Shown piece by piece: positions 3,978 through 30,847 of a DNA stretch of 64,000 nucleotides. The translations under genes and the position numbers were made by a program. Positions within the stretch are counted from its first letter, which is position 1. Each line of letters opens with the position of its first letter. The notes below the pieces were generated by a model, which was not told the DNA's origin, searched no databases, and saw only the letters and a program-made list of their open reading frames with translations. The stretch is from Patescibacteria group bacterium (lineage in GTDB: Bacteria; Patescibacteriota; Gracilibacteria; UBA1369): NCBI GenBank assembly GCA_963169655.1, contig CAUJCM010000004.1:124001-188000 (forward strand), read 5' to 3'.

Positions 3978-4908
3978 TTTTATTTTTGTAATCTTCTTCT
4001 AGATTTAAGGCCAAGTTTAAAGAATGAATAGCAACTTCTAGCATCTTATCATCCGGTTCTTTTGTTGTAACTCTTTGCATCAATAAGCCTGGGAAAGAAA
4101 TAATCTTATAAAATATTCTTTCACTATGTTTAGCTGAAATTTTTAATAATTCATAAGAAATACCAGCTATTAGTGGTAAAGCTGCTAATCTAATTAAAAA
4201 ATTTAAGATAAAATTTGGATTTTTAGGAATTAAAGTGAATAAAACAATACTAATCAAAAAAACAACTATGATAAAACTTGTTCCACATCTTGGATGGAAT
4301 CTTGTTTGATTTCTTGCATTCTCTACCGTTAAATCTAAACCATTCTCATATGTCATTATAGTTTTGTGTTCAGCACCATGATACATAAAGACTCTTTTCA
4401 TATCAGGTAATAAAGATATTAAACTTATATAACCAACAAAAATAAATATTTTTAAAAATCCGTCTATAAAATTATATATTAAATAATTATTATTGATGGC
4501 TTCACTATTAGAACTTATAAAATCAGTAACGAATAAAGGAATAAATTTAAATAATAAAATTGCAAGAAATAAACCAAATATCATAGAAGCAGCTAAAGTA
4601 ATATTATTCCAAATACTAGGCTTATCAGCTTTCTCCTGTGCCTCTTCATTTAATGAAATAGCTGTTGAAAAATTTAATGCTTTAGTTCCAATGATCATCA
4701 TTTCAAACATATTAATAATTCCTCTTAAAAATGGGATATTTAAAGCTCTTAACCTAGCAGTAATATTAATATATTTTTCTTTTTTCTCTGCAATATTGCC
4801 TTGAGGAGTACGCACAGCTATTGTATTAAAATGTGGAGATCTCATTAAAATCCCTTCTATTAAAGCTTGACCACCTACAGCAAAATCAATTTTCTCAATG
4901 TTTCTCAT
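3961..4908 (-). CDS. DUF1385 / YqhQ-like membrane protein
   Basis: This 315-residue protein belongs to the DUF1385 family (Bacillus YqhQ). The family N-terminus GGQALIEGILMRSP is at about residues 12-25. The conserved YHGAEHKTIMTYENG and ARNQTRFHPRCGTSF blocks lie in the middle, and MQRVTTKEPDDKMLEVAI near the end. Hydrophobic segments are at about 105-130, 150-170, 215-235 and 240-260. The conserved His, Cys and Glu residues suggest a metal site, but the biochemical role of the family is unsettled. It is divergent from dut. Confidence 0.85.
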   Translation of the reverse strand: MRNIEKIDFAVGGQALIEGILMRSPHFNTIAVRTPQGNIAEKKEKYINITARLRALNIPFLRGIINMFEMMIIGTKALNFSTAISLNEEAQEKADKPSIWNNITLAASMIFGLFLAILLFKFIPLFVTDFISSNSEAINNNYLIYNFIDGFLKIFIFVGYISLISLLPDMKRVFMYHGAEHKTIMTYENGLDLTVENARNQTRFHPRCGTSFIIVVFLISIVLFTLIPKNPNFILNFLIRLAALPLIAGISYELLKISAKHSERIFYKIISFPGLLMQRVTTKEPDDKMLEVAIHSLNLALNLEEDYKNKNDIIL

Positions 4909-5030
4909 TATATTTTTTTAAAGTAATTTAATGGTAACCAAGTATCAGACAAATTGGCAAATCAAAATCTCTTAAAATACTTGGATTTTTTACGCTTGCA
5001 GTCTAAATTATTACATAATAATTGTGAAAT

Positions 5031-5471
5031 ATGAATAAAGTTTTAATTAAAAGAATAGACAAAAATATTCCTTTGCCAAAATATGAAACTCAAGGATCAG
5101 TTGCTTTTGATTTTGTGACAAGGTTAGACACCATAATACCTGCTAAAGAATTAGCTTTAATTCCAAGTAATGTGATTGTAAAAGTGCCAGAAGGTTATAT
5201 GCTCTGTCTTGCTTCAAGAAGTAGTACCCCTTTAAAAAGAAGACTCTTAACTCCTCATGGATTTGGTGTTATAGATTTGGATTATCACGGACCAAATGAC
5301 GAAATTAAAGTAATGGTATTTAATTTTAGTGATCAGGAAGTTACTATTGAAAAAGGTGCTCGCATTGCACAAGGTATTTTTATTAAAATTGATAAGTTTG
5401 AATTTGAAGAAGTAGAACAAATAGATGCTCAAGATAGAGGAGGATTTGGGTCTACTGGAACTAATATATAA
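5031..5471 (+). CDS. dut: dUTP diphosphatase (dUTPase)
   Basis: The enzyme (146 aa) hydrolyses dUTP to dUMP and pyrophosphate, which keeps uracil out of DNA and feeds dTMP synthesis. The five trimeric-dUTPase motifs are in order: GSVAFDF (22-28, more usually an AGYD-type motif), ASRSS (61-65), GVIDLDYHGPNDEI (79-92), RIAQGIF (111-117) and the glycine-rich RGGFGSTG (136-143). It starts a compact operon with a thymidylate-kinase-like gene (10 bases downstream) and folD. Confidence 0.94.
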   Translation: MNKVLIKRIDKNIPLPKYETQGSVAFDFVTRLDTIIPAKELALIPSNVIVKVPEGYMLCLASRSSTPLKRRLLTPHGFGVIDLDYHGPNDEIKVMVFNFSDQEVTIEKGARIAQGIFIKIDKFEFEEVEQIDAQDRGGFGSTGTNI

Positions 5472-5480
5472 ATCAAAAAT

Positions 5481-7005: not shown

Positions 7006-7527
7006 ATGGAGAAAAGGTTTAAACTTTTTATAAATACCGATTTTCAAGAAAATATTAAAAATCAACAAAAAGTTGATAGTGATCTTAAACAAGTAGAGGA
7101 ATTTGAATATTTACTAAATGAATTACTAAATATTGATGACAATGACTTCTTATGGTTAAGAAAATTTATAGATAGTTTGACGGAATTACCTGGAAAATAC
7201 CAATATAATTATTTTATAGAAGAATATTGGAGTGTTTTTAAGAGATTATTTGACTTAAGTGATGAAATTTATGGAACACAAAATTTTCATCGAAAAATTA
7301 ATTATTTTTCACTTTTAGTATATTTAGATTTTATTTTTATTAAATTTCCTTACTTTTTCCAAAATAATTTAAATCTGTTTAATGAAATAAAATATCATCA
7401 TAATTTAGAAAGATTTAAAAAAGTCTATGTTCAAAAGCTTCTAATATATGAACAATATGACTTCAATAACGAAAAAAATAATTCTATTTTCGAAATCAAG
7501 AAGGCTATTATTAGTACATTAAAATAG
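7006..7527 (+). CDS. unrecognised cytoplasmic protein
   Basis: This 173-residue protein has no signal peptide and no clear membrane segment. It is rich in Asn, Phe, Tyr and charged residues and appears mostly helical. I recognise no motif. It has its own good promoter, a 21-base gap from that promoter to ATG, and ends in TAG. It is a lineage-specific protein as far as I can tell. Confidence 0.6.
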   Translation: MEKRFKLFINTDFQENIKNQQKVDSDLKQVEEFEYLLNELLNIDDNDFLWLRKFIDSLTELPGKYQYNYFIEEYWSVFKRLFDLSDEIYGTQNFHRKINYFSLLVYLDFIFIKFPYFFQNNLNLFNEIKYHHNLERFKKVYVQKLLIYEQYDFNNEKNNSIFEIKKAIISTLK

Positions 7528-7534
7528 CATTTTC

Positions 7535-7562
7535 TTGTAATAATATGTCTTTATGCTATAAT
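7535..7562 (+). promoter_or_regulatory. promoter that decides the start of the following gene
   Basis: TTGTAA (7535-7540), 16-bp spacer, TATAAT (7557-7562). Transcription would begin near 7569, downstream of an in-frame ATG at 7545. This favours the ATG at 7590 for the next gene. Confidence 0.6.
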
Positions 7563-7589
7563 ATATTGATATATTATTTTAATAAGTAT

Positions 7590-8510
7590 ATGAGAGCACA
7601 ACAAAAGACTTTATTAGGATTAGGAGATGAAAGTGAAAAAGAAAATGGAAATATAAAAAAGAATGATTCAAATGATGTAAAATCTCTGTCTTCAGTGAGT
7701 TCTCATCTTCTTCAAGCTCCAAAGGAAGAAGTAAAATTGCTAGAAAAACCCCAAACTGCAAATGAAGTTCAAGATATTCAAAAAAAAGTGCATTTTGAGA
7801 TAGATTTGGCAAATACTGGTTATTCAACAGAAATTAAGGAAGTCAATGGCAATCCTCTTTTATTGGGAATATTTAATAATGGACGTGTCTTGCCTGAATC
7901 ACATTTAAAAAAGAATGTGAGATTAGCTTATTTAAATAGCTCGGAAAAGAATAATGAATTAAAAATTAGAGGTGTGGAGGTTTACTCTCCAATGGGAACT
8001 GATAGAACTGAATTGAAAAAAATGATTATTGATAAAAAACAAAGTAAAAAAGGAGTGGTTGATAGATTTGTATTAAGTTTGGATCTTGAAAATAGACTTA
8101 TAGATGTAGAAGCAAATGAAGAAGGTCCAAGGGCTTTTATTTTAAGGAGTGGAAAACTCGTTTCTGGAGGTAAAAACAGCTTCTTTTCTTTAAAAAATGA
8201 TATTTTGGATGCAAGTAATGCGAGTAGTTTACAATTAGGGAAAGGCGATTCAATTTTGGTTTTAACAAAGAAAATACAAGATGCTTTAGTACAACAAACT
8301 ACAAGGGATACTGAAATGTCTAGCGACTATTACAATAATACTTTAGCAAATCAAATTCAAAATATTATGTTTAAAAATAAATCTAAAAATGGAATTTTAA
8401 ATGTAAGGGCCGTGTTTGATGAAATTAGTAATATATATGGTCATTATATGAAAGACACGCCTGAAACTGAATTAGTGACTTCAAGCATAATGGTGTATCA
8501 ATTGGGTTAA
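7590..8510 (+). CDS. unknown protein, faintly PP2C-like
   Basis: This is 306 residues from ATG 7590; the in-frame ATG at 7545 lies upstream of the predicted transcription start. The first 75 residues are charged and low-complexity. The rest looks like a beta-rich domain. The segments EGPRAFILRSGKLVSG and LGKGDSILVLTKKIQDAL recall the C-terminal half of PP2C/SpoIIE phosphatases (the GD..LL.TDG motif). However, the metal-binding aspartates DG and DN are not visible, so it would be an inactive relative if related at all. The call is weak. Confidence 0.6.
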   Translation: MRAQQKTLLGLGDESEKENGNIKKNDSNDVKSLSSVSSHLLQAPKEEVKLLEKPQTANEVQDIQKKVHFEIDLANTGYSTEIKEVNGNPLLLGIFNNGRVLPESHLKKNVRLAYLNSSEKNNELKIRGVEVYSPMGTDRTELKKMIIDKKQSKKGVVDRFVLSLDLENRLIDVEANEEGPRAFILRSGKLVSGGKNSFFSLKNDILDASNASSLQLGKGDSILVLTKKIQDALVQQTTRDTEMSSDYYNNTLANQIQNIMFKNKSKNGILNVRAVFDEISNIYGHYMKDTPETELVTSSIMVYQLG

Positions 8511-18146: not shown

Positions 18147-19604
18147 ATGTCTATTGAAGATAAAAAAGATTTAATATCTAATCCAAATGAAGTGGGAAAT
18201 GCACAAGAAATGATGAAAATTTCTAAAATTCCAAGAAATGACACCTCTACTGCAAACAAATTAACTGAGGAATTTAAGGCTGATATTCACCATGTAATTA
18301 CAAATAGTAAAGGTTCTTTTGAAAATAATTCAAGTAGTGATTTTTTATTAACAAATCTAATTCTTAGTACTCATAAAAAAGATCATTTTGAGTTAGCAAT
18401 TAATATGATTTATGATCAAAAAATACAAGAACTAATAACAAATTTAGATAATTTGAATGGCATTGATTCTGTTAGACACTATCAATTAATCAATGAAATT
18501 ATCAGAACTGGACAAGGTGAATTTATTATTCCAACTCAAATTAAAAGATTTTATGGGGTTGATGAAAGCATACATTTTCAAATAATTAAGGCTATGATTA
18601 ATGCAGGACAAGGTGAATATATTGCCACTTATTTGGAAAACTTTTCTGGAATTAAAGAAGAACATCACTATGAATTAGTATCAGTATTAATTTATGCTGG
18701 ATTTGGGGAAAGTGTTGCTTACAACTTCCATAAATTTACTGGTCTAAATGATATACAATTTACAGAAATAGTTAATTGTTTACTAGTAAATGGTTATGGG
18801 GCTTTTGTATTAGGAAAAGATGAAATTATAAATAGAATACCACAAGATTTACATTTAGATTTGGCTGAAGAAATTATTATGGCGAAAGATGGTAAATATA
18901 TTGCCAAAAACCTCAATAAATTATCAGGTATACCAGCTGAAAAACATTTTGATTTAGCAATGAGTATGATTAATAACGGAGATGGTTATTATGTTGCGCA
19001 AAATTTTGCATATTTTACAGGTATTAAGAAAGAAGCATATTATTCAATTGTGACAAATTTAATTAAGAATTTAGAATTTGAAGCTATAATTCAATTTTTT
19101 TCTAAATTTGAATTAAAAGGTAGAGACCAATTAATTGTAGCTCATAAATTTATTCAAGCTGGAGAAGGAGAATTATTTGCAGACAATTTTGAATTATTTA
19201 CTGATATTCAACCAAAAGACCATTATAAAATAGCTTTAAATATGCTAGAAAATGATGCTGGAGAAGATTTAGCTGATAATTTTGAAAAATTTACTGGAAT
19301 TGAGCAATCAAAACATCTTGAAATAGCACATTATTTATTAAGGAAAGATCTAGGATATTATTTCGTATTAAATTTTGAAAAATTTACTGGAATTGAAGAA
19401 ATTGACCATCAAACTCTCTTGATTAATCTCTTTGATAAAAGCAAAAACCCTGTATTTGATAGTTTTATTAAGAAATTTACTGGTTTAAATAAAGCTTTAA
19501 AAGATATTTTCGAAGATCCAAAAATGTTTCATACTTTTAAATGTCTGTTAAATCAAGGGAAGTCATTTAGTGAAGCTTTAAATATTCTTATTCCTGCAAA
19601 TTAA
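18147..19604 (+). CDS. protein of about twelve tandem 31-residue repeats
   Basis: This 485-residue protein has no signal peptide. From about residue 75 to the end it consists of roughly twelve repeats of 31-32 residues. The approximate pattern is HxxLAxxMIxxGxGxxVAxNFxKFTGIxxx; clear copies are DHYKIALNMLENDAGEDLAD, KHFDLAMSMINNGDGYYVAQ and NFEKFTGIEQS. Two helices per repeat suggest an alpha-solenoid for protein or nucleic acid binding, distinct from HEAT, TPR or PPR consensus as I know them. A diverged paralog with about seven repeats lies at 29759-30847. Function is unknown. Confidence 0.8.
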   Translation: MSIEDKKDLISNPNEVGNAQEMMKISKIPRNDTSTANKLTEEFKADIHHVITNSKGSFENNSSSDFLLTNLILSTHKKDHFELAINMIYDQKIQELITNLDNLNGIDSVRHYQLINEIIRTGQGEFIIPTQIKRFYGVDESIHFQIIKAMINAGQGEYIATYLENFSGIKEEHHYELVSVLIYAGFGESVAYNFHKFTGLNDIQFTEIVNCLLVNGYGAFVLGKDEIINRIPQDLHLDLAEEIIMAKDGKYIAKNLNKLSGIPAEKHFDLAMSMINNGDGYYVAQNFAYFTGIKKEAYYSIVTNLIKNLEFEAIIQFFSKFELKGRDQLIVAHKFIQAGEGELFADNFELFTDIQPKDHYKIALNMLENDAGEDLADNFEKFTGIEQSKHLEIAHYLLRKDLGYYFVLNFEKFTGIEEIDHQTLLINLFDKSKNPVFDSFIKKFTGLNKALKDIFEDPKMFHTFKCLLNQGKSFSEALNILIPAN

Positions 19605-19800: not shown

Positions 19801-22800
19801 TTGAGTAATACAGCTAAAGAATCAAAAGAGGATCAAATTATTGCGGAACAAAGAGAAATAGCACAACCAATTACTGATACAATTAATAGAAATGGTGAGA
19901 CAAGTGTGCAAAATTTTACAGAAATTTTAAATACCGCTAACCTTGTAACCACTGCCGTTAAAGAAGTAACAACAGGTAGTATTGCAAAAGCACCAGAAAA
20001 ACCTACTTTGCCAATTTTAGAGATAAAGAGGAAAATTTTGGACACAATAAAAAATAACATAGTAACAATTATTACTGCAGAAACTGGTGCCGGTAAAAGT
20101 ACTCAAGTGCCTCAATTTTTATTGGATGATGGTTATCAGGTTATTGTCACACAACCAAGAAGACTTGCTGCAAAATCATTAGCTCAAAGGGTTGCCTATG
20201 AAAGAGGAGAGAAACTGGGAGGAGATGTGGGATTCCATACTGCAGAAGAAAGAGTAGCTAGTCCAAACACCAAATTATTATTTTGTACTGATGGTTTGCA
20301 ATTAGTAAAAGAATTAACAGGCCAAGGTGTTAAAGGAAGAAAAATGGCTTTAGTTTTAGATGAAGTACATGAATGGAATTTGAATATTGAAACTTTGATA
20401 GCTTGGGTAAAAAAACAAGTTAAACAAGGAGTTGATATAAAAATTGTTTTAATGTCAGCTACTTTAAATTCAAATGAATTAGCAAAATATTTCGACAATG
20501 ATGGACAAAATGCTCCGGTAATAGAAGTTGAAGGTAAATTATTTACTATTAAAGAAAGCCAAATTAATCCAGATAGTATGACTAGCACAATTATTGATTT
20601 GGCTGGACAAAAAAGAAATGTTTTAGTTTTTCAACCTGGTAAAAAAGAGATAGAAAAAACAATTGAACAATTAAAAGGAAAAGTAGATGCAGAGATACTT
20701 CCTTTACATGGTGATTTGGACCCAAGCGAACAACAAAAAGTCTTTAAACATTACTCTAAACCTAAGATTATAGTGTCCACTAATGTTGCTCAAACTTCTA
20801 TTACAATAGATGATATTGATGCAGTTGTAGATACTGGTGTTGAAAGGAGAATCGAAACAATAAGTGGAGTAGAATCTTTACTTTTAAAAGATATCAGCCA
20901 GGCTGATTGCAAACAAAGAAGAGGTAGAGCTGGTCGTACAAAAGAAGGTATTTATGTTTTATGTAGTAATAGTAATTTAAGTTCTAGAGATGAATTTTCC
21001 ATACCAGAAATACTTAGATTAAGATTAGATCAAATGGTATTGAGATTATCAGCTAATGGTTTAGATGCAACAAATTTAGAATTCTTTCATCAACCTGATA
21101 AAGCAAAAATTATAGAGGCAAAAAATACACTAATTGCCTTAGGTGCAATGACAAAAGATGGGCAAATTACAAAAATTGGTAGAGATATAGCTAAATTACC
21201 AATTGCGGTAAATACTGGGAGAATGGTGTTAGAAGCAATTAAACATAAATGTGTTGATGAAGTAATCACAATAGCTGCTTGTCTTGAAGTGGGTGGAATC
21301 AATGACAAAAGTAATAATTGGAGAAGTTTAACTCAAGAAAATACTTCTGATCTCTTGGCACAATTAGACCTTTTTAATAAGGCTAGTAAAATGGATAAAA
21401 ACCAATTAGCAGAAAATGGTATTCATATGAAAGCGTTTTTTAGAGCAAAAGAAATTAGAAAACACTTATTTAAGGCTATTGTGTCTTCAGTATTAAAAAA
21501 CCAGATTCAAAGTACAAATAAGAGTCGTGAAGCTATTTTAAAAAGTATTACAGCTGGAATGGTTGATCATTTATATCAAAGACAAGGAGGAGAATATTAT
21601 TATGGTAAAGAACAAGACAGTAGATTATTAGGAAAAGAGAGTGTAATTGGTCGTTCTGACTGGATAGTAGGAATTCCTAAAAATATTTCATTTACTGATA
21701 GAAGAGGTAGACCTGGAACATTGTCTATATTAACAATGTGTTCAGCCGTTAAAATAGAATGGCTACTCGAAATGGCCCCTCATTTAATAAGCAAAGAAAA
21801 TGGAAAATTCTTTTGGAATAGAGTGTCACAAGAAGTATCTTTTTATGAATATATTTCCTTTAATAAAACAAAAGTAGCTGAAAACTTAAAAGAAGCTGAA
21901 ATAAGTAATGAATCCTTAGAGGTATTTATAGAGAATTTATATGAAAATAATGTAGGTTCAGCTATTTCTAATGAATTAGCAGAATATTATAGAGACTTAA
22001 GAAATAAATTAGAATCATTATATTTGCGTTCAAATGGAGCTACTAAAAGAATTCTTAAGGAAGATATTTTAAATTTATTTAGAAATATTTTAGGACAATA
22101 TCAAATAACTTCACTAAAAAAATTTGAAGAAGTAATGCAAGACAAAGTTGATATTGAAGAGCTTAAATTAAAAATAGAAGATTATATTTCTCAAGAAGAG
22201 ATAGAAACAATAGAAAAAGAAAATCCTCTAAGAGCAAATATTAAAGGTCAAGAGTTTGATATATCCTATAGTTTTAGAAATTCATATGATATTTCTAAAG
22301 GAACTTTTGCATATATAAATATTAAATTGGAAGAAGTTGTAGAATTGGAGGAACAAGATATAGGAGCAGTATTTGCTGATGATAGAATTTTATATTTTAA
22401 AATTATAGATAACTATAGTTTTAATAGCATTTATACCCTGCAATCAATAAAGGATTCATTTAGAAATCATAAAATCTCATATGCATGGGACAATTTTATT
22501 TACGGAGAAGGGAAAGATAAAGTAATTCAATTAAATGAAAATAATAAATTTCCAGAATTACCAGAAAAAAGAATCTTCGAAGAATATACTCAATCTATAG
22601 CCTATCCTGGATTTTATGAATATTATGGCAACTATTTTATCAAATGGTTTAAGACAGAAGAAGAAGCTGAACAATCTTCAAAAAAATCATTCAATCATCG
22701 AGATCAATTATTATTGAGTGATATAAAATATCAAATTAAAGAATTATTTAAAGATATTTTTACTACGAAAAAGAAAATTAGATCAGAAGATGAAAATTTT

Positions 22801-23583
22801 CAATTGTTATCAATAGAATTAAACAAAGCTGAACAAGAATTTGATTCTTATTATGATAGTTTAGAGAGAATGAAGTTGTTAATTGAAAACTTAAAATTAA
22901 TAAAAGTAAATTTTGAAAAGCATTATGAAAAAGATCTAGAAATTCAACAGAAAATTGAAGGAGAGCTAGACTTACAACCAAGTGGAGAACAAGAATATAC
23001 TCAAAAACTCCCTGATTATTATGGAGTTACTAACGATGGAAGTATTTCTGGTGGCATATTTGCAGATAAATTAAAGGAAGCTCTAGGACTTAAAAAACTA
23101 AATGAGAAAAAGCCTAAAACTAAAGCTGCACCAATACAAAATCATCATCAAAATAAAAATTATAGTAATATTTCACCAACTTCTGAATTACAAATAAAGG
23201 AAGAAGAAATTTCGTTTAGAAAACTAGAAGAAATGTCAGAAGAAGAAACTTATCGTGAATATGAGGCAAATGAGGAAGAAATAAAGAAAATTATTACTGA
23301 AAATCCGAACATAGAAAGTATATCAGATGAAGTAGGTAGAAAACAAAGTCGATTAGATGAGATAGAAAAAGAATTAAAAATATTAATTGATATAAGAGAT
23401 CAAACTCAAAATTCTAATAAAAAAGAGAAAGCTATAGAGAACCTCAGTCAATTAAGAAATGAAAAAAATGAGTTAAGAGATCAATTAGTAGAATTTAAAA
23501 AAGAAGAAAATAGACTGTCTGAAAAGATAATACGATTAAAAAACTTAAAAGAAAGACAATCTGAAATAGAAAAGAAGCTCTAA
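19801..23583 (+). CDS. DEAH/HrpA-type helicase with long charged C-terminal extension
   Basis: This 1260-residue SF2 helicase has a TTG start, since no in-frame ATG precedes the motor. Motif I is AETGAGKST (about 93-101), followed by TQPRRLAAKS. Motif II is DEVH (about 187-190) instead of DEAH, motif III is SAT (about 219), and motif VI is QRRGRAGR (about 372-379). Winged-helix/ratchet-like sequence follows to about 620. The last 300-400 residues are highly charged and coiled-coil-like (KLEEMSEEETYREYEANEEE). HrpA-type enzymes remodel RNA and stalled ribosomes. A terminator separates it from the DHH-like gene. Confidence 0.88.
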   Translation: MSNTAKESKEDQIIAEQREIAQPITDTINRNGETSVQNFTEILNTANLVTTAVKEVTTGSIAKAPEKPTLPILEIKRKILDTIKNNIVTIITAETGAGKSTQVPQFLLDDGYQVIVTQPRRLAAKSLAQRVAYERGEKLGGDVGFHTAEERVASPNTKLLFCTDGLQLVKELTGQGVKGRKMALVLDEVHEWNLNIETLIAWVKKQVKQGVDIKIVLMSATLNSNELAKYFDNDGQNAPVIEVEGKLFTIKESQINPDSMTSTIIDLAGQKRNVLVFQPGKKEIEKTIEQLKGKVDAEILPLHGDLDPSEQQKVFKHYSKPKIIVSTNVAQTSITIDDIDAVVDTGVERRIETISGVESLLLKDISQADCKQRRGRAGRTKEGIYVLCSNSNLSSRDEFSIPEILRLRLDQMVLRLSANGLDATNLEFFHQPDKAKIIEAKNTLIALGAMTKDGQITKIGRDIAKLPIAVNTGRMVLEAIKHKCVDEVITIAACLEVGGINDKSNNWRSLTQENTSDLLAQLDLFNKASKMDKNQLAENGIHMKAFFRAKEIRKHLFKAIVSSVLKNQIQSTNKSREAILKSITAGMVDHLYQRQGGEYYYGKEQDSRLLGKESVIGRSDWIVGIPKNISFTDRRGRPGTLSILTMCSAVKIEWLLEMAPHLISKENGKFFWNRVSQEVSFYEYISFNKTKVAENLKEAEISNESLEVFIENLYENNVGSAISNELAEYYRDLRNKLESLYLRSNGATKRILKEDILNLFRNILGQYQITSLKKFEEVMQDKVDIEELKLKIEDYISQEEIETIEKENPLRANIKGQEFDISYSFRNSYDISKGTFAYINIKLEEVVELEEQDIGAVFADDRILYFKIIDNYSFNSIYTLQSIKDSFRNHKISYAWDNFIYGEGKDKVIQLNENNKFPELPEKRIFEEYTQSIAYPGFYEYYGNYFIKWFKTEEEAEQSSKKSFNHRDQLLLSDIKYQIKELFKDIFTTKKKIRSEDENFQLLSIELNKAEQEFDSYYDSLERMKLLIENLKLIKVNFEKHYEKDLEIQQKIEGELDLQPSGEQEYTQKLPDYYGVTNDGSISGGIFADKLKEALGLKKLNEKKPKTKAAPIQNHHQNKNYSNISPTSELQIKEEEISFRKLEEMSEEETYREYEANEEEIKKIITENPNIESISDEVGRKQSRLDEIEKELKILIDIRDQTQNSNKKEKAIENLSQLRNEKNELRDQLVEFKKEENRLSEKIIRLKNLKERQSEIEKKL

Positions 23584-23605: not shown

Positions 23606-23646
23606 AAAAAGTAAGTAAATAGTCTTAAAATAAATACTTGCTTTTT
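23606..23646 (+). terminator. intrinsic terminator after the helicase gene
   Basis: Stem AAAAAGTAAGTA/TACTTGCTTTTT (one G-U pair) with a T-tail. A -35-like TTGCTT and -10 TATAGT for the next gene overlap its right arm. Confidence 0.72.
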
Positions 23647-23695
23647 TACAAAATTATGTTATAGTCATATCTTATTTATTAACTTATATAAAAAT

Positions 23696-24868
23696 ATGGA
23701 AAAAAAAGAAGGCCTAGACTTAATGGGTAAAAACCCAGAAGTAGTAGCTAAAACTACCGAAGGTGGTAGAGAAAATGCTGAAAAGCAACGTATCTCAAAA
23801 GAAAAGATACAAAGTGAAGTAGCTTTGACAAAGTTTGAGATAGCTAAAAATACCGCTATTTTTACTAAATTCTTTAGTGAAAATGATAAAGAAGCTGTTT
23901 TAAGCTCAATTCCTGAAGGAACTAAGAAAGTAGTATGTATTGATACTCCTTCAACCCCTCATTTACTCGCTTTAGTACAAGAACTATTAAATAGAGGAAT
24001 TGAAGTAGAAGTTAGAGATCACCATGATGTTTTAGCTCCTAAAAATCCTAGAGAACAAGAAATTGCAGACTCTGCTAAATCTATGAGATCTTTAGTAGGA
24101 GAAAAAGCTGTAATTAGTGATAGAGAAGCTAACCCTGCTTGTTCAAGCTTAATAGCTGTTGGAGAATTTGCTTCTGAAGGAGTTGTGATCATCGCAGATC
24201 CAGATCCAGATGGACTTTTGGGTACAATGAAAGGTCTAGGGATAGTATATGAAACTTTAGATAAAGACGCATCTATTTTAGATGGACCTAGAAGTGCACA
24301 AACTGCTGAAAACTTAAGCCAAGATGCATTTTTATTTGTTAGAGCAATGTCTACATTACCTCCATTTGACGCTAATAGACCTCAAATTAGTACTTCTGCT
24401 AAAGCAAGACTATTTAGTGATTTTGTTTCTACAATAAGTGGAAATGAAGAAGCTAGACAAAATTTAACTTCAAAGGTTGTGGAATATGAAGAACAAGTAA
24501 AGGTTGCTAATCAATTAGTAGAAACAGCAGAAGAAGTGACAAAAGGAGTTGTACTTGTTGATACAGTAGGTAAACCAAGATTTAATTTAACCACTCTATC
24601 CAATAAATTAGAAGCAAAACCTGGATGTATGGTGACAGTTACTAGAAAGGATAATGGTCCAATTGCTGCTAAACATGGAGGAATACAATATTCTTTAGCA
24701 GTAGCAAAAAATCATAAAGATCAATTAAACTTACAAGATTTATTACCAGAAGGATTTACTTCATCTCCAGAAGAAGGAATCATCTCTAATACTTCATTCC
24801 TACTTCATGTTAATGAAGAAACATGGAATAATGCTGTTCTGCCTGCATTAAAAGCTAAATTAAGCTAA
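23696..24868 (+). CDS. DHH-like putative phosphoesterase with unusual motif order
   Basis: This 390-residue protein has a basic helical N-terminal region (about 1-75). A Rossmann-like segment follows, with VVCIDTPSTPH, then a DHH triad in VRDHHDVL (about 109-112). Further on comes VVIIADPDPDGLLGTMKGLG (about 165-184), which reads like DHH motif I (H-x-D-x-D-G). In canonical DHH enzymes motif I precedes the DHH triad; here it follows. The C-terminal part has AAKHGGIQYSLAVA, reminiscent of the DHHA1 GG motif. It may be a nanoRNase or cyclic-dinucleotide phosphodiesterase relative, but the substrate is unknown. Confidence 0.65.
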   Translation: MEKKEGLDLMGKNPEVVAKTTEGGRENAEKQRISKEKIQSEVALTKFEIAKNTAIFTKFFSENDKEAVLSSIPEGTKKVVCIDTPSTPHLLALVQELLNRGIEVEVRDHHDVLAPKNPREQEIADSAKSMRSLVGEKAVISDREANPACSSLIAVGEFASEGVVIIADPDPDGLLGTMKGLGIVYETLDKDASILDGPRSAQTAENLSQDAFLFVRAMSTLPPFDANRPQISTSAKARLFSDFVSTISGNEEARQNLTSKVVEYEEQVKVANQLVETAEEVTKGVVLVDTVGKPRFNLTTLSNKLEAKPGCMVTVTRKDNGPIAAKHGGIQYSLAVAKNHKDQLNLQDLLPEGFTSSPEEGIISNTSFLLHVNEETWNNAVLPALKAKLS

Positions 24869-24892: not shown

Positions 24893-24929
24893 AAAGGGAC
24901 TTTACTTTTAAAAGTAAAGTCCCTTTTTT
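24893..24929 (+). terminator. strong intrinsic terminator
   Basis: A perfect stem of AAAGGGACTTTAC with GTAAAGTCCCTTT and a TTTTAAAA apex is followed by further Ts. It closes the DHH-like gene before tRNA-Leu. Confidence 0.92.
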
Positions 24930-24988
24930 ATATTAAAATAACTTTAAACCAAAATATTTTTATTTTAAAATATTATTATAAGTATTTT

Positions 24989-25076
24989 GCTCGGGTGGCG
25001 AAATTGGCAGACGCGCTACGTTCAGGTCGTAGTGACTTAAAAAGTCGTGGAGGTTCAAGTCCTCTCCCGAGTACCA
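24989..25076 (+). tRNA. tRNA-Leu (anticodon CAG)
   Basis: An 88-nt class II tRNA. Acceptor GCTCGGG/CCCGAGT (G-U at the end), anticodon stem CTACG/CGTAG with loop TTCAGGT giving CAG, long variable arm TGACTTAAAAAGTCG, T-loop GGTTCAAGTCC and encoded CCA. Confidence 0.95.
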
Positions 25077-27177: not shown

Positions 27178-28510
27178 TTATTGTTTATTAAGCTGGTTCG
27201 TTAATTCAATATATTTCTCTATTAAATAATCTCTTTCGATATTATCTTCTTCCAATTTAAAATTAAAGTGATCTCTTCCAGTTTTTCGACTTAAACGAGA
27301 ATCATGGATAATGTTCTTATTATAAGTTTTTTGAAAATATTGCTCATATAGTTTTCTGTATTTTCATATGGTCTATATCTAAACACACTAAACCTAATTT
27401 TAGCTTGCTTTTTATTATCAAGATCTTTAAGGCTTAAAGCTAACTGATATGTCATTTCCATATCAACTTCACTTTCCATTGGAAAACCATAAATAAGAAA
27501 AATCTTAAGATTTATTCCTGCTGTAATGATTTTATTAACTACTTCTTTTATTTTAGAAACATCTGACACTTTATGGATTTTTTTAAGGATATTTGGTGAA
27601 CCAGACTCAACCCCTATAAATAGTTCATAACACCCAGATTTTTTTAATTTGATTATATCCTTTAATTCTATATTTTTAAATGTATTTATATGTGCCATTG
27701 CTCTCCATTCTAATAATTTAAAATTATTAAATAATGAAGCTGCTTCTAATATGGTACATTTATTTGTTCAAAATAGATCATCAAGTACCCATAATATATG
27801 ATAAATTACTTGTTTCATCCAACAATTGATGAATTTCTTGTTGTATATTATTTAATGACCTTCTACGAGATTTCACATTAATATTTCTAGTAATAGCTGA
27901 TCCACAAAATGCACAATTATAAATACATCCTCTCGTAGCAACTATACAAGCTTCTAAAAGATTATTATGTAATCCAACTCCATTGTTTAATAAAATGGTT
28001 CTATCTATGCTAGCAGTATCTATGTTTTGGTTATAAAACTCTGAAGATGAATCTATAATAAATAATCTATTATTTTTAATATGTCGATTAGGTATTAAAC
28101 GTGTATTTTTATTAAGCAGATCTGATATAATCAATTCTCCATCTCCTAAAACAACATCAATACTATTTGAAACATTTAAGTTTAGAATTTCAGTTTCAAT
28201 TCCTTTTAGACCTGCTCCCCCAATAATAAATTTAATAGAGGAAGCAAAATTTTCAATAATTGAAATAACTTCATTTTTATTCACTGTGAATATATTTAGA
28301 GCTACCATTTGTAGTGGTGACTTTTGGATATATTCAATTGTTTTTTATCACTCATACCCAGGTTACTAGCATCTAGTAAGTCTACTTCAAAACCATGGTT
28401 TTTTGCACTAGTAGCTACTTGTGCTAAACCTAAAGGAGGTACATAATCTTCACTGATAAATTAAAATCCTTATCTGATAATGGACTATTTATGAATAATA
28501 TCTTATCCAT
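27178..28510 (-). pseudogene. decayed B12-binding radical SAM protein
   Basis: Reading frames must be joined at least four times. MDKILFINSPLSDKDFNLS starts at 28510 and a shift occurs near 28452. DYVPPLGLAQVATSAKNHGF (B12-binding-type start) follows, with another shift near 28325. Next comes the frame with RGCIYNCAFCGSA, the CxxxCxxC cluster motif, and a shift near 27790. LDDLF follows, then an in-frame TGA at 27768-27770 and a long frame with FIGVESGSPNILKKIHK. A one-base deletion near 27347 restores YIEQYFQKTYNKN to the TAA at 27178-27180. The intact gene would have encoded about 440 residues. Confidence 0.85.
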
Positions 28511-29758: not shown

Positions 29759-30847
29759 ATGAATGATAAACAATTACACTTACCACAAAATGATTTTAGA
29801 GGCTTAACTAGCGATGAAAATATATGTACTGATGACTTATCAAATAAAGAAAATATAATCCATGATTCAGTTTCAAATAAACAACTACTACTTCCAATTG
29901 ATGAGTTTAGTGATTTACGTTTTGAAAAATCAGTTCCTCAAGTTGAATTAAACTTAAGAGAATTAGAAGAAAATACAAATGAAATGTTTAATTATCTTAA
30001 TTCTAGAGAGATAGAGGAATTAGAGAAAATATATTTGCAAAGTGCGAAATATCTTGAAGAAATTCTTAAGACTAATGATGATAGTGAAATTCAAAAGATT
30101 TTAAACTCAATACCAAATGACCTGCATATCAATATTGCTTTATCATTGATAAATCAAGGTAAAACCGAACTTTTACTAAATCACTTTAGCTATTTCTGTG
30201 GTATACCTGAAAAATATCATCTAAGCCTCTTATTTGAAATTATGTATTTAGGACCTAATCAGGCTTCTATTTTGATAAAGTATTTTTCTAAATTAAGTGG
30301 GATTCCGGCTAATCTTCATTTATTTATCGTTAATAAATTTGTAGATGAAGGATATGGTTTTCAAGTTGCTTCTAATTTTGATGCTTTCTATGGGATTCCA
30401 AAAGAGGTTCACTGGGATATTATTAAAGAAATCTGCGAAATGAATGGAGGTTGGATAATATTACAAAATATCACTAAATTTTATTTAACTCCTGATCATT
30501 ATTTTGAATTTATTCAATCTGTTATTAATAGAGGTGAAAGTTTTGCTGCATTAGAAGGAATTGCAAAGCTATATCAAAATGACCCTGAAAATCAACTTAA
30601 ATTAGCAGAGAAGTTAATCAAGGCTGGTTATGGGCAGTGGTTTGCAATCTATTTTGGAATTACTCTTGCTAAAACTTTACCCAAAAAAGATCATCTTGCT
30701 GTTGCTGACATGTTAATACAAAATGGAGAGGCTAAAATTTTAAGAAATTATATAGACAGCTTTAATGGCATTCCTCAACCTATTAAAAAATTATTTTTAC
30801 TTTTAGGAGAATTTAATGACTATATGGAGGAAAAAAAGAAATTATAA
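29759..30847 (+). CDS. second 31-residue-repeat protein (paralog)
   Basis: This 362-residue soluble protein has a charged N-terminal region of about 115 residues. About seven copies follow of the same 31-residue repeat seen at 18147-19604, for example LHLFIVNKFVDEGYGFQVAS, NFDAFYGIPKE, DHLAVADMLIQNGEAKILRN and YIDSFNGIPQP. The shared pattern is H at repeat position 2, a glycine near position 14 and a closing F-x-GIP/GI. It has its own promoter and terminator. Function unknown; an alpha-solenoid scaffold is the likely structure. Confidence 0.78.
   Translation: MNDKQLHLPQNDFRGLTSDENICTDDLSNKENIIHDSVSNKQLLLPIDEFSDLRFEKSVPQVELNLRELEENTNEMFNYLNSREIEELEKIYLQSAKYLEEILKTNDDSEIQKILNSIPNDLHINIALSLINQGKTELLLNHFSYFCGIPEKYHLSLLFEIMYLGPNQASILIKYFSKLSGIPANLHLFIVNKFVDEGYGFQVASNFDAFYGIPKEVHWDIIKEICEMNGGWIILQNITKFYLTPDHYFEFIQSVINRGESFAALEGIAKLYQNDPENQLKLAEKLIKAGYGQWFAIYFGITLAKTLPKKDHLAVADMLIQNGEAKILRNYIDSFNGIPQPIKKLFLLLGEFNDYMEEKKKL

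Follow-up and report, generated by a model that had tools for sequence, protein, structure and literature searches.

The 64,000-nucleotide stretch of patescibacterial DNA analysed here (the window) encodes a 390-aa protein (23696..24868, + strand, ATG start) that carries the motifs of the DHH phosphoesterases in the order II, III, then I, followed by a C-terminal domain with a DHHA1-type fold. Given this motif order and the gain in profile score when the segments are rotated, the protein was classed as a permuted variant rather than as an ordinary DHH member, and it is probably a variant enzyme whose active-site segments are shuffled relative to the described members of the family. Its most likely role is that of a catalytically active, metal-dependent nuclease, or a phosphoesterase of oligonucleotides, that works with the neighbouring helicase. 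The explanation as a whole, namely a DHH-DHHA1 phosphoesterase with an internally permuted catalytic domain, which forms one two-metal site and hydrolyses oligonucleotides supplied by a helicase, appears likely to us.

The first 43 residues have no counterpart in the homologues, and residues 1-40 are predicted to be disordered. Motif II, VVCIDTP (23930..23950, + strand; residues 79-85), contains the invariant D83 and aligns by profile to the canonical and RecJ motif II. It is followed by motif III, RDHHD (24014..24028, + strand; residues 107-111), and by the conserved NPACSSLI (24131..24154, + strand; residues 146-153), whose short helix returns the chain to the strand of motif I. The RecJ-like motif I, VIIADPDPDGLL, occupies the permuted position (24185..24220, + strand; residues 164-175), with ADPDPDG at 167-173 providing the pattern D168-x-D170-x-D172-G173. 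Downstream of it lies LDKDASILDGPR (24257..24292, + strand; residues 188-199), in which D191 and D196 are invariant and may stand in for the ligand of motif IV. The DHHA1-like domain (24521..24865, + strand; approximately residues 276-390) retains a conserved serine, S333. Among the 12 aligned members (the window protein and 11 of the 12 loci described below), the invariant positions are D83, R107-D108-H109-H110, A167-D168, D170, D172-G173-L174, D191 and D196. The earlier note had placed the DHH triad (about residue 110) ahead of motif I (about residue 170), and this order is indeed constant, both across all 12 members and in a divergent subfamily; no member has the canonical arrangement, in which the first strand bears motif I and the order is I-II-III-IV.

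A profile search of genome contigs retrieved 12 loci, 41-58% identical where aligned, all of which come from metagenome-assembled genomes; where a lineage is stated, it is Patescibacteria, Parcubacteria, Uhrbacteria, Magasanikbacteria or Peregrinibacteria. One relative, 50% identical, belongs to the window's own family, in which 2 of 13 genomes carry the gene, and further relatives are spread across the phylum. The permuted protein is rare, with matches at E ≤ 0.01 in 7 of the 287 sampled phylum genomes, the weakest of which (E = 0.006) is from a genome without such a protein. Searches of phage, plasmid and viral contigs, with the protein or the alignments as query, found no relatives. The divergent subfamily (approximately 19-23% identical) keeps the order II-III-I with the classical HxDxDG as motif I, as in VFFHADPDGYLAF and VFFHDDLDGYLAY; the choice of D or H at the first motif I position also varies among canonical DHH proteins (FGDYDVDG versus SHRNPDPD types). 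Besides the permuted protein, the window genome encodes four canonical DHH proteins, including a canonical RecJ. Several members show features of their own. Two carry Cys-rich insertions, a zinc-ribbon-like CAPC...CPQC N-terminal to the DHHA1 domain (L020:6001-7128) and CDCKSDWSC immediately ahead of motif I (L026:6001-7077), and a distant member (L007:1021-2034, - strand) has TEH for DHH and a degraded motif I, HANCMDG, and is probably inactive. Directly 3' of the permuted gene at L017 lies a gene for a 189-aa protein (7354-7920, + strand), which contains GDHHRETYDNGG...SCPPA and then a LLIETPNLDSVGAAAV segment and has no family match.

On the intact protein, Pfam gave only a weak DHH match (14.0 bits against a cut-off of 28.1), in which residues 54-124 aligned to profile positions 19-92, a stretch that covers motifs II and III but leaves motif I out. 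NCBIfam gave no match, and the PDB sequence searches yielded insignificant matches only, one of which put motifs II-III on chain 5yh1_A with the DHH at that place. A search of relatives with PF01368 supplied 13 RecJ-type and 7 NrnA-type proteins for canonical DHH alignments, and the hhalign comparisons rest on these 20 patescibacterial proteins only. Against the combined canonical profile, the natural segment 46-200 scored 30.8 with only motifs II-III aligned, and placing residues 161-200 before 46-160 raised the score to 45.8 (P 1.3e-6) in a single alignment running through motifs I, II and III. The controls stayed well below this value, reaching at most 31.9 when 30 other segments of the same proteins were placed in front and 33.1, the best of all 130 controls, when the columns of the block were shuffled 100 times. 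A longer rotated block, 161-228, brought no gain (31.5), indicating that the transposed unit spans approximately residues 161-200. Rotation also increased the Pfam DHH score in 4 of 4 members (15.8 to 18.9, 23.3 to 27.9, 22.2 to 27.4 and 15.5 to 22.1), that is, by 3 to 7 bits, and shifted the start of the alignment to profile position 2-9. Two control rotations gave no gain (15.1 and 20.3), and the best rotated score still lies under the curated cut-off (27.9 versus 28.1). The Pfam model is independent of the profiles made here, and the rotated sequences serve profile scoring only.

The DHH superfamily fold comprises a five-stranded sheet of order 2-1-3-4-5, on which the ligands converge on two metals. 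The AlphaFold model of the protein, predicted with 12 family sequences, has a mean pLDDT of 87.6 (approximately 90-97 across most of residues 50-390) and a pTM of 0.77. In this model, a strand at 78-82 leads into D83, a strand at 103-108 into the DHH triad, and a strand at 163-167 into DxDxDG and a helix at 171-180, after which the linker helices (229-275) are followed by an alpha/beta C-terminal domain. In a Foldseek search with the full model, all 19 PDB matches at E ≤ 0.001 were DHH proteins (probability 0.91-1.00; TM-scores 0.15-0.36, rmsd 12-19 Å), among them the pAp phosphatase 8a8k (E 1.7e-8), PggH, GdpP, RecJ, NrN and DhhP, and all 16 viral structure matches with a functional name at the same threshold were DHH enzymes. 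The full-model matches are DHH-DHHA1 proteins, and the C-terminal domain behind the helical linker is DHHA1-like by fold; PF02272, the sequence profile of DHHA1, had no match to the 390-aa protein. The catalytic domain modelled alone (44-228; pLDDT 90.6, pTM 0.86) found no DHH structure at E ≤ 0.001, its second match being the DHH protein Rv2837c (E 0.027, TM 0.20). As Foldseek depends on segment order, this result is expected for a permutation, yet it is no positive demonstration of one.

The motif order could be explained without any permutation if the N-terminal motif I had been lost and ADPDPDG were an elaborated motif IV, comparable to the GTxAD of RecJ, which lies about 60 residues past DHH. 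The spacing allows for this reading, as approximately 60 residues also separate DHH from ADPDPDG, similar to D158-D223 in Deinococcus radiodurans RecJ (PMC4846377), and a strand pair is predicted at 45-56 near the N-terminus. However, these N-terminal strands carry no acidic motif and are not among the scoring windows, and the block has the arrangement strand-DxDxDG-helix, whereas motif IV comes after a helix. Scored separately, the block matched the canonical motif I region at 29.1 (P 9e-7) against 9.8 for the post-DHH/motif IV region, with the motif IV aspartate unaligned; with the RecJ-only profile the values were 19.9 and 14.1, the latter in an alignment past the motif IV aspartate. In a scan of all windows of the protein, motif I matched only at approximately 160-176 and motif IV had no match. 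The four sequences of the divergent subfamily alone gave no significant motif I match in the same scan, and their classical HxDxDG also speaks against motif IV. The assignment of ADPDPDG to motif IV was thus rejected on the separate region scores and the whole-protein scan, and we consider it quite improbable. We give hardly any credence to an unrelated Rossmann-like fold bearing the DHH and DPDPD strings by chance: it would account for the whole-protein score below the Pfam cut-off and for the isolated domain without a significant DHH structure match, but DHH profile E-values are as low as 8e-5 in the natural order, every full-model structure match listed above is a DHH protein and the catalytic residues are invariant. 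Of the two possibilities raised in the earlier note, a new branch is borne out, and a circular permutation holds in part: homologue order, rotated scores and the discrimination between motifs I and IV all indicate that motif I has moved behind the DHH triad, but the chain as a whole is not permuted, the rearrangement being confined to the inside of the DHH domain with DHHA1 still C-terminal.

In D. radiodurans RecJ, the metal ligands are D79, D81 and D83 (motif I), D135 (motif II), H159 (motif III) and D223 (motif IV), and D158 and H160 form the catalytic pair (PMC4846377). Mapped onto the permuted protein, the equivalents are D168, D170 and D172, D83, H109, and D108 with H110, so that 7 of the 8 metal and catalytic residues are invariant in the 12 aligned members and only the motif IV ligand has no equivalent. 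The DHHA1 domain is more altered: S333-L-A335 stands in place of the SxR of motif VI, keeping the serine with no arginine, and LLPEG is found at the position of the motif VII GGGH, which pApase requires to bind its substrate (PMC8268124). A GG motif near the C-terminus had been taken to recall DHHA1; this did not hold, as GG 328-329 precedes the SLAV strand (331-336), the first of its two glycines, G328, varies among members, and LLPEG takes the place of the GGGH, although the domain is DHHA1-like by fold. With seven of eight residues kept and GGGH and the arginine lost, a dead enzyme seems less likely than an active one whose handling of the substrate has changed.

The gene starts 112 bp 3' of the end of a helicase gene (19801..23583, + strand), whose 1260-aa DEAH-box product belongs to a divergent HrpA-like clade. 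By eye, a possible promoter (TTGCTT-N16-TATAGT; 23638..23665, + strand) can be read in the gap 3' of the helicase gene and an intrinsic terminator-like inverted repeat with a T run (24893..24932, + strand) 3' of the DHH gene, and a tRNA-Leu gene (24989-25076) lies downstream of both. Elsewhere in the window, 18147-19604 and 29759-30847 (+ strand) encode two proteins made of mutually similar, degenerate repeats (FxxFxGI..H; approximately 35 residues each), the former without a Pfam match, and a Radical-SAM-like gene (RGCIYNCAFCGS; 27291-28308, - strand) is apparently broken into two ORFs (27781-28308 and 27291-27698).

The position of the gene downstream of a large helicase, already remarked on in the earlier note, proved to be a recurrent feature and is judged meaningful. 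In the window and at four of the other 12 loci (L018, L020, L024, which is the G001 genome, and L025), a gene for an HrpA-like DEAH helicase lies no more than 2 kb from the DHH gene, and a fifth locus, L021, has a divergent SF2 helicase there. The order of the two genes differs between loci; at 7 of the 12 loci, no helicase was found in the flanking DNA examined, several of these flanks being short. Among the 57 relatives searched, 8 genomes contain HrpA-type genes, and the divergent paralogue (280-324 bits) is present only in G000 and G001, exactly those two that carry the permuted DHH gene. The helicases of the window, G001 and L020 group together, with mutual identities of 41-59% and a DEVHEWN or DELHQWN box, and are distinct from the housekeeping HrpA-type proteins (approximately 25-35% identical). 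Since a 1.1-Mb genome contains at most about one such gene, chance is a very improbable cause of the repeated adjacency; the estimate is rough, and the loci are not fully independent. Similar uncharacterised proteins with a RAxELNxRAG start are encoded 3' of the helicase gene at L020 (9986-12238) and L021 (10755-12236), which suggests that the DHH gene, the helicase gene and this third gene form a conserved set at these two loci. Just upstream of the permuted gene, L020 also encodes a P-loop protein with a C-terminal Csx3 (CRISPR-associated) domain (4115-5473, + strand).

Two further readings concern what the protein does. It may act on a small nucleotide, such as pAp or a linear or cyclic oligonucleotide signal, with the helicase an incidental or only regulatory neighbour. 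The nearest solved structures, which are pAp phosphatase, PggH and GdpP and not the processive RecJ, the NrnA-like size without an OB domain and the Csx3-domain protein near one locus are all compatible with such a role; the recurrent helicase linkage, the restriction of the helicase clade to these genomes and the absence of the GGGH by which NrnA and pApase bind their substrates (PMC8268124) argue against it, and we regard it as possible but somewhat doubtful. A catalytically dead, Cdc45-like scaffold derived from a DHH protein and binding nucleic acid for the helicase would fit the missing motif IV aspartate, motif VI arginine and GGGH, as well as the TEH and degraded motif I of the distant L007 member. 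Cdc45, however, lost three ligands (PMC4846377), whereas the invariance of all but one of the RecJ residues here makes a dead protein unlikely.

For the preferred explanation, an active permuted phosphoesterase, the following scheme may be proposed. The segment with strand 1 and motif I (DxDxDG) would have left the N-terminus for a position between motif III and the DHHA1 linker, speculatively through tandem duplication followed by loss, and the pieces would reassemble the usual sheet in three dimensions. D168, D170 and D172, together with D83 and H109, would then bind two divalent metals in what we infer to be a single site, with D108-H110 as the catalytic pair, and the enzyme would cut phosphodiester bonds of an oligonucleotide, or of a short single-stranded nucleic acid, that rests against its DHHA1 domain. 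Unwound RNA or DNA probably comes from the DEAH helicase; RecQ-RecJ (PMC4846377) and Hef-HAN (PMC5717133) are precedents for such helicase-nuclease pairs.

A second DHH-like family was observed at L020:1403-2173 (+ strand), on a Paenibacillus larvae plasmid (L059:2875-3717) and in a gut phage record (L060, approximately 1001-1690). Its proteins have HH (FDHH or LAHH, then PAPC) before HIDxDT, next VDLNG or IDLNG, and DHHA1-like endings (FAGHPKAAGSPRG, GPEAGGHAGIAGSPRG); the L020 copy has no Pfam, NCBIfam or PHROG match. This family is possibly another permuted DHH protein. Taken further, one may tentatively imagine a catalytically active permuted DHH, conserved across several patescibacterial lineages, that forms a dedicated nuclease-helicase machine with a private HrpA-like clade, the second family (DHH/AHH-HxDxDT) perhaps being another permutation.

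Searches of the openly accessible literature gave no precedent for a permuted DHH domain. A conserved protein of this kind would show that re-ordered segments are able to reconstitute a two-metal site, would account for the failure of standard profiles on these proteins, and would point to more permuted relatives among hypothetical proteins, while the helicase linkage would offer a direct route to function in lineages with poorly known nucleic-acid turnover. Compared to RecJ, a 5'-3' ssDNA exonuclease with DHH, DHHA1 and OB domains, the protein shares the D-x-D-x-D-G motif I, the motif II aspartate, the DHH triad, DHHA1 after a helical linker and a possible helicase partnership. It differs in motif order (II-III-I here, I-II-III-IV in RecJ), in lacking a recognisable motif IV, the motif VI arginine and GGGH, and in having 390 aa, a chain too short for an OB-fold domain; the NCBIfam recJ equivalog had no match to the window protein and scored 18.9 bits at best within the family against a cut-off of 396.9. 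The cores of NrnA, archaeal pAp phosphatase and GdpP-PggH-DhhP resemble it in the DHH-helix-DHHA1 layout, in length and as the best structure matches, and differ in that the catalytic domain here is permuted and has no GGGH substrate motif. HAN of archaea has the canonical motif order. This RecJ-like DHH nuclease takes its name from an association with the helicase-type protein Hef (PMC5717133), whereas the putative partner here is an HrpA-like DEAH helicase encoded nearby. Cdc45, finally, is likewise a DHH-derived helicase partner, but one that has lost metal ligands (PMC4846377) which the permuted protein retains.
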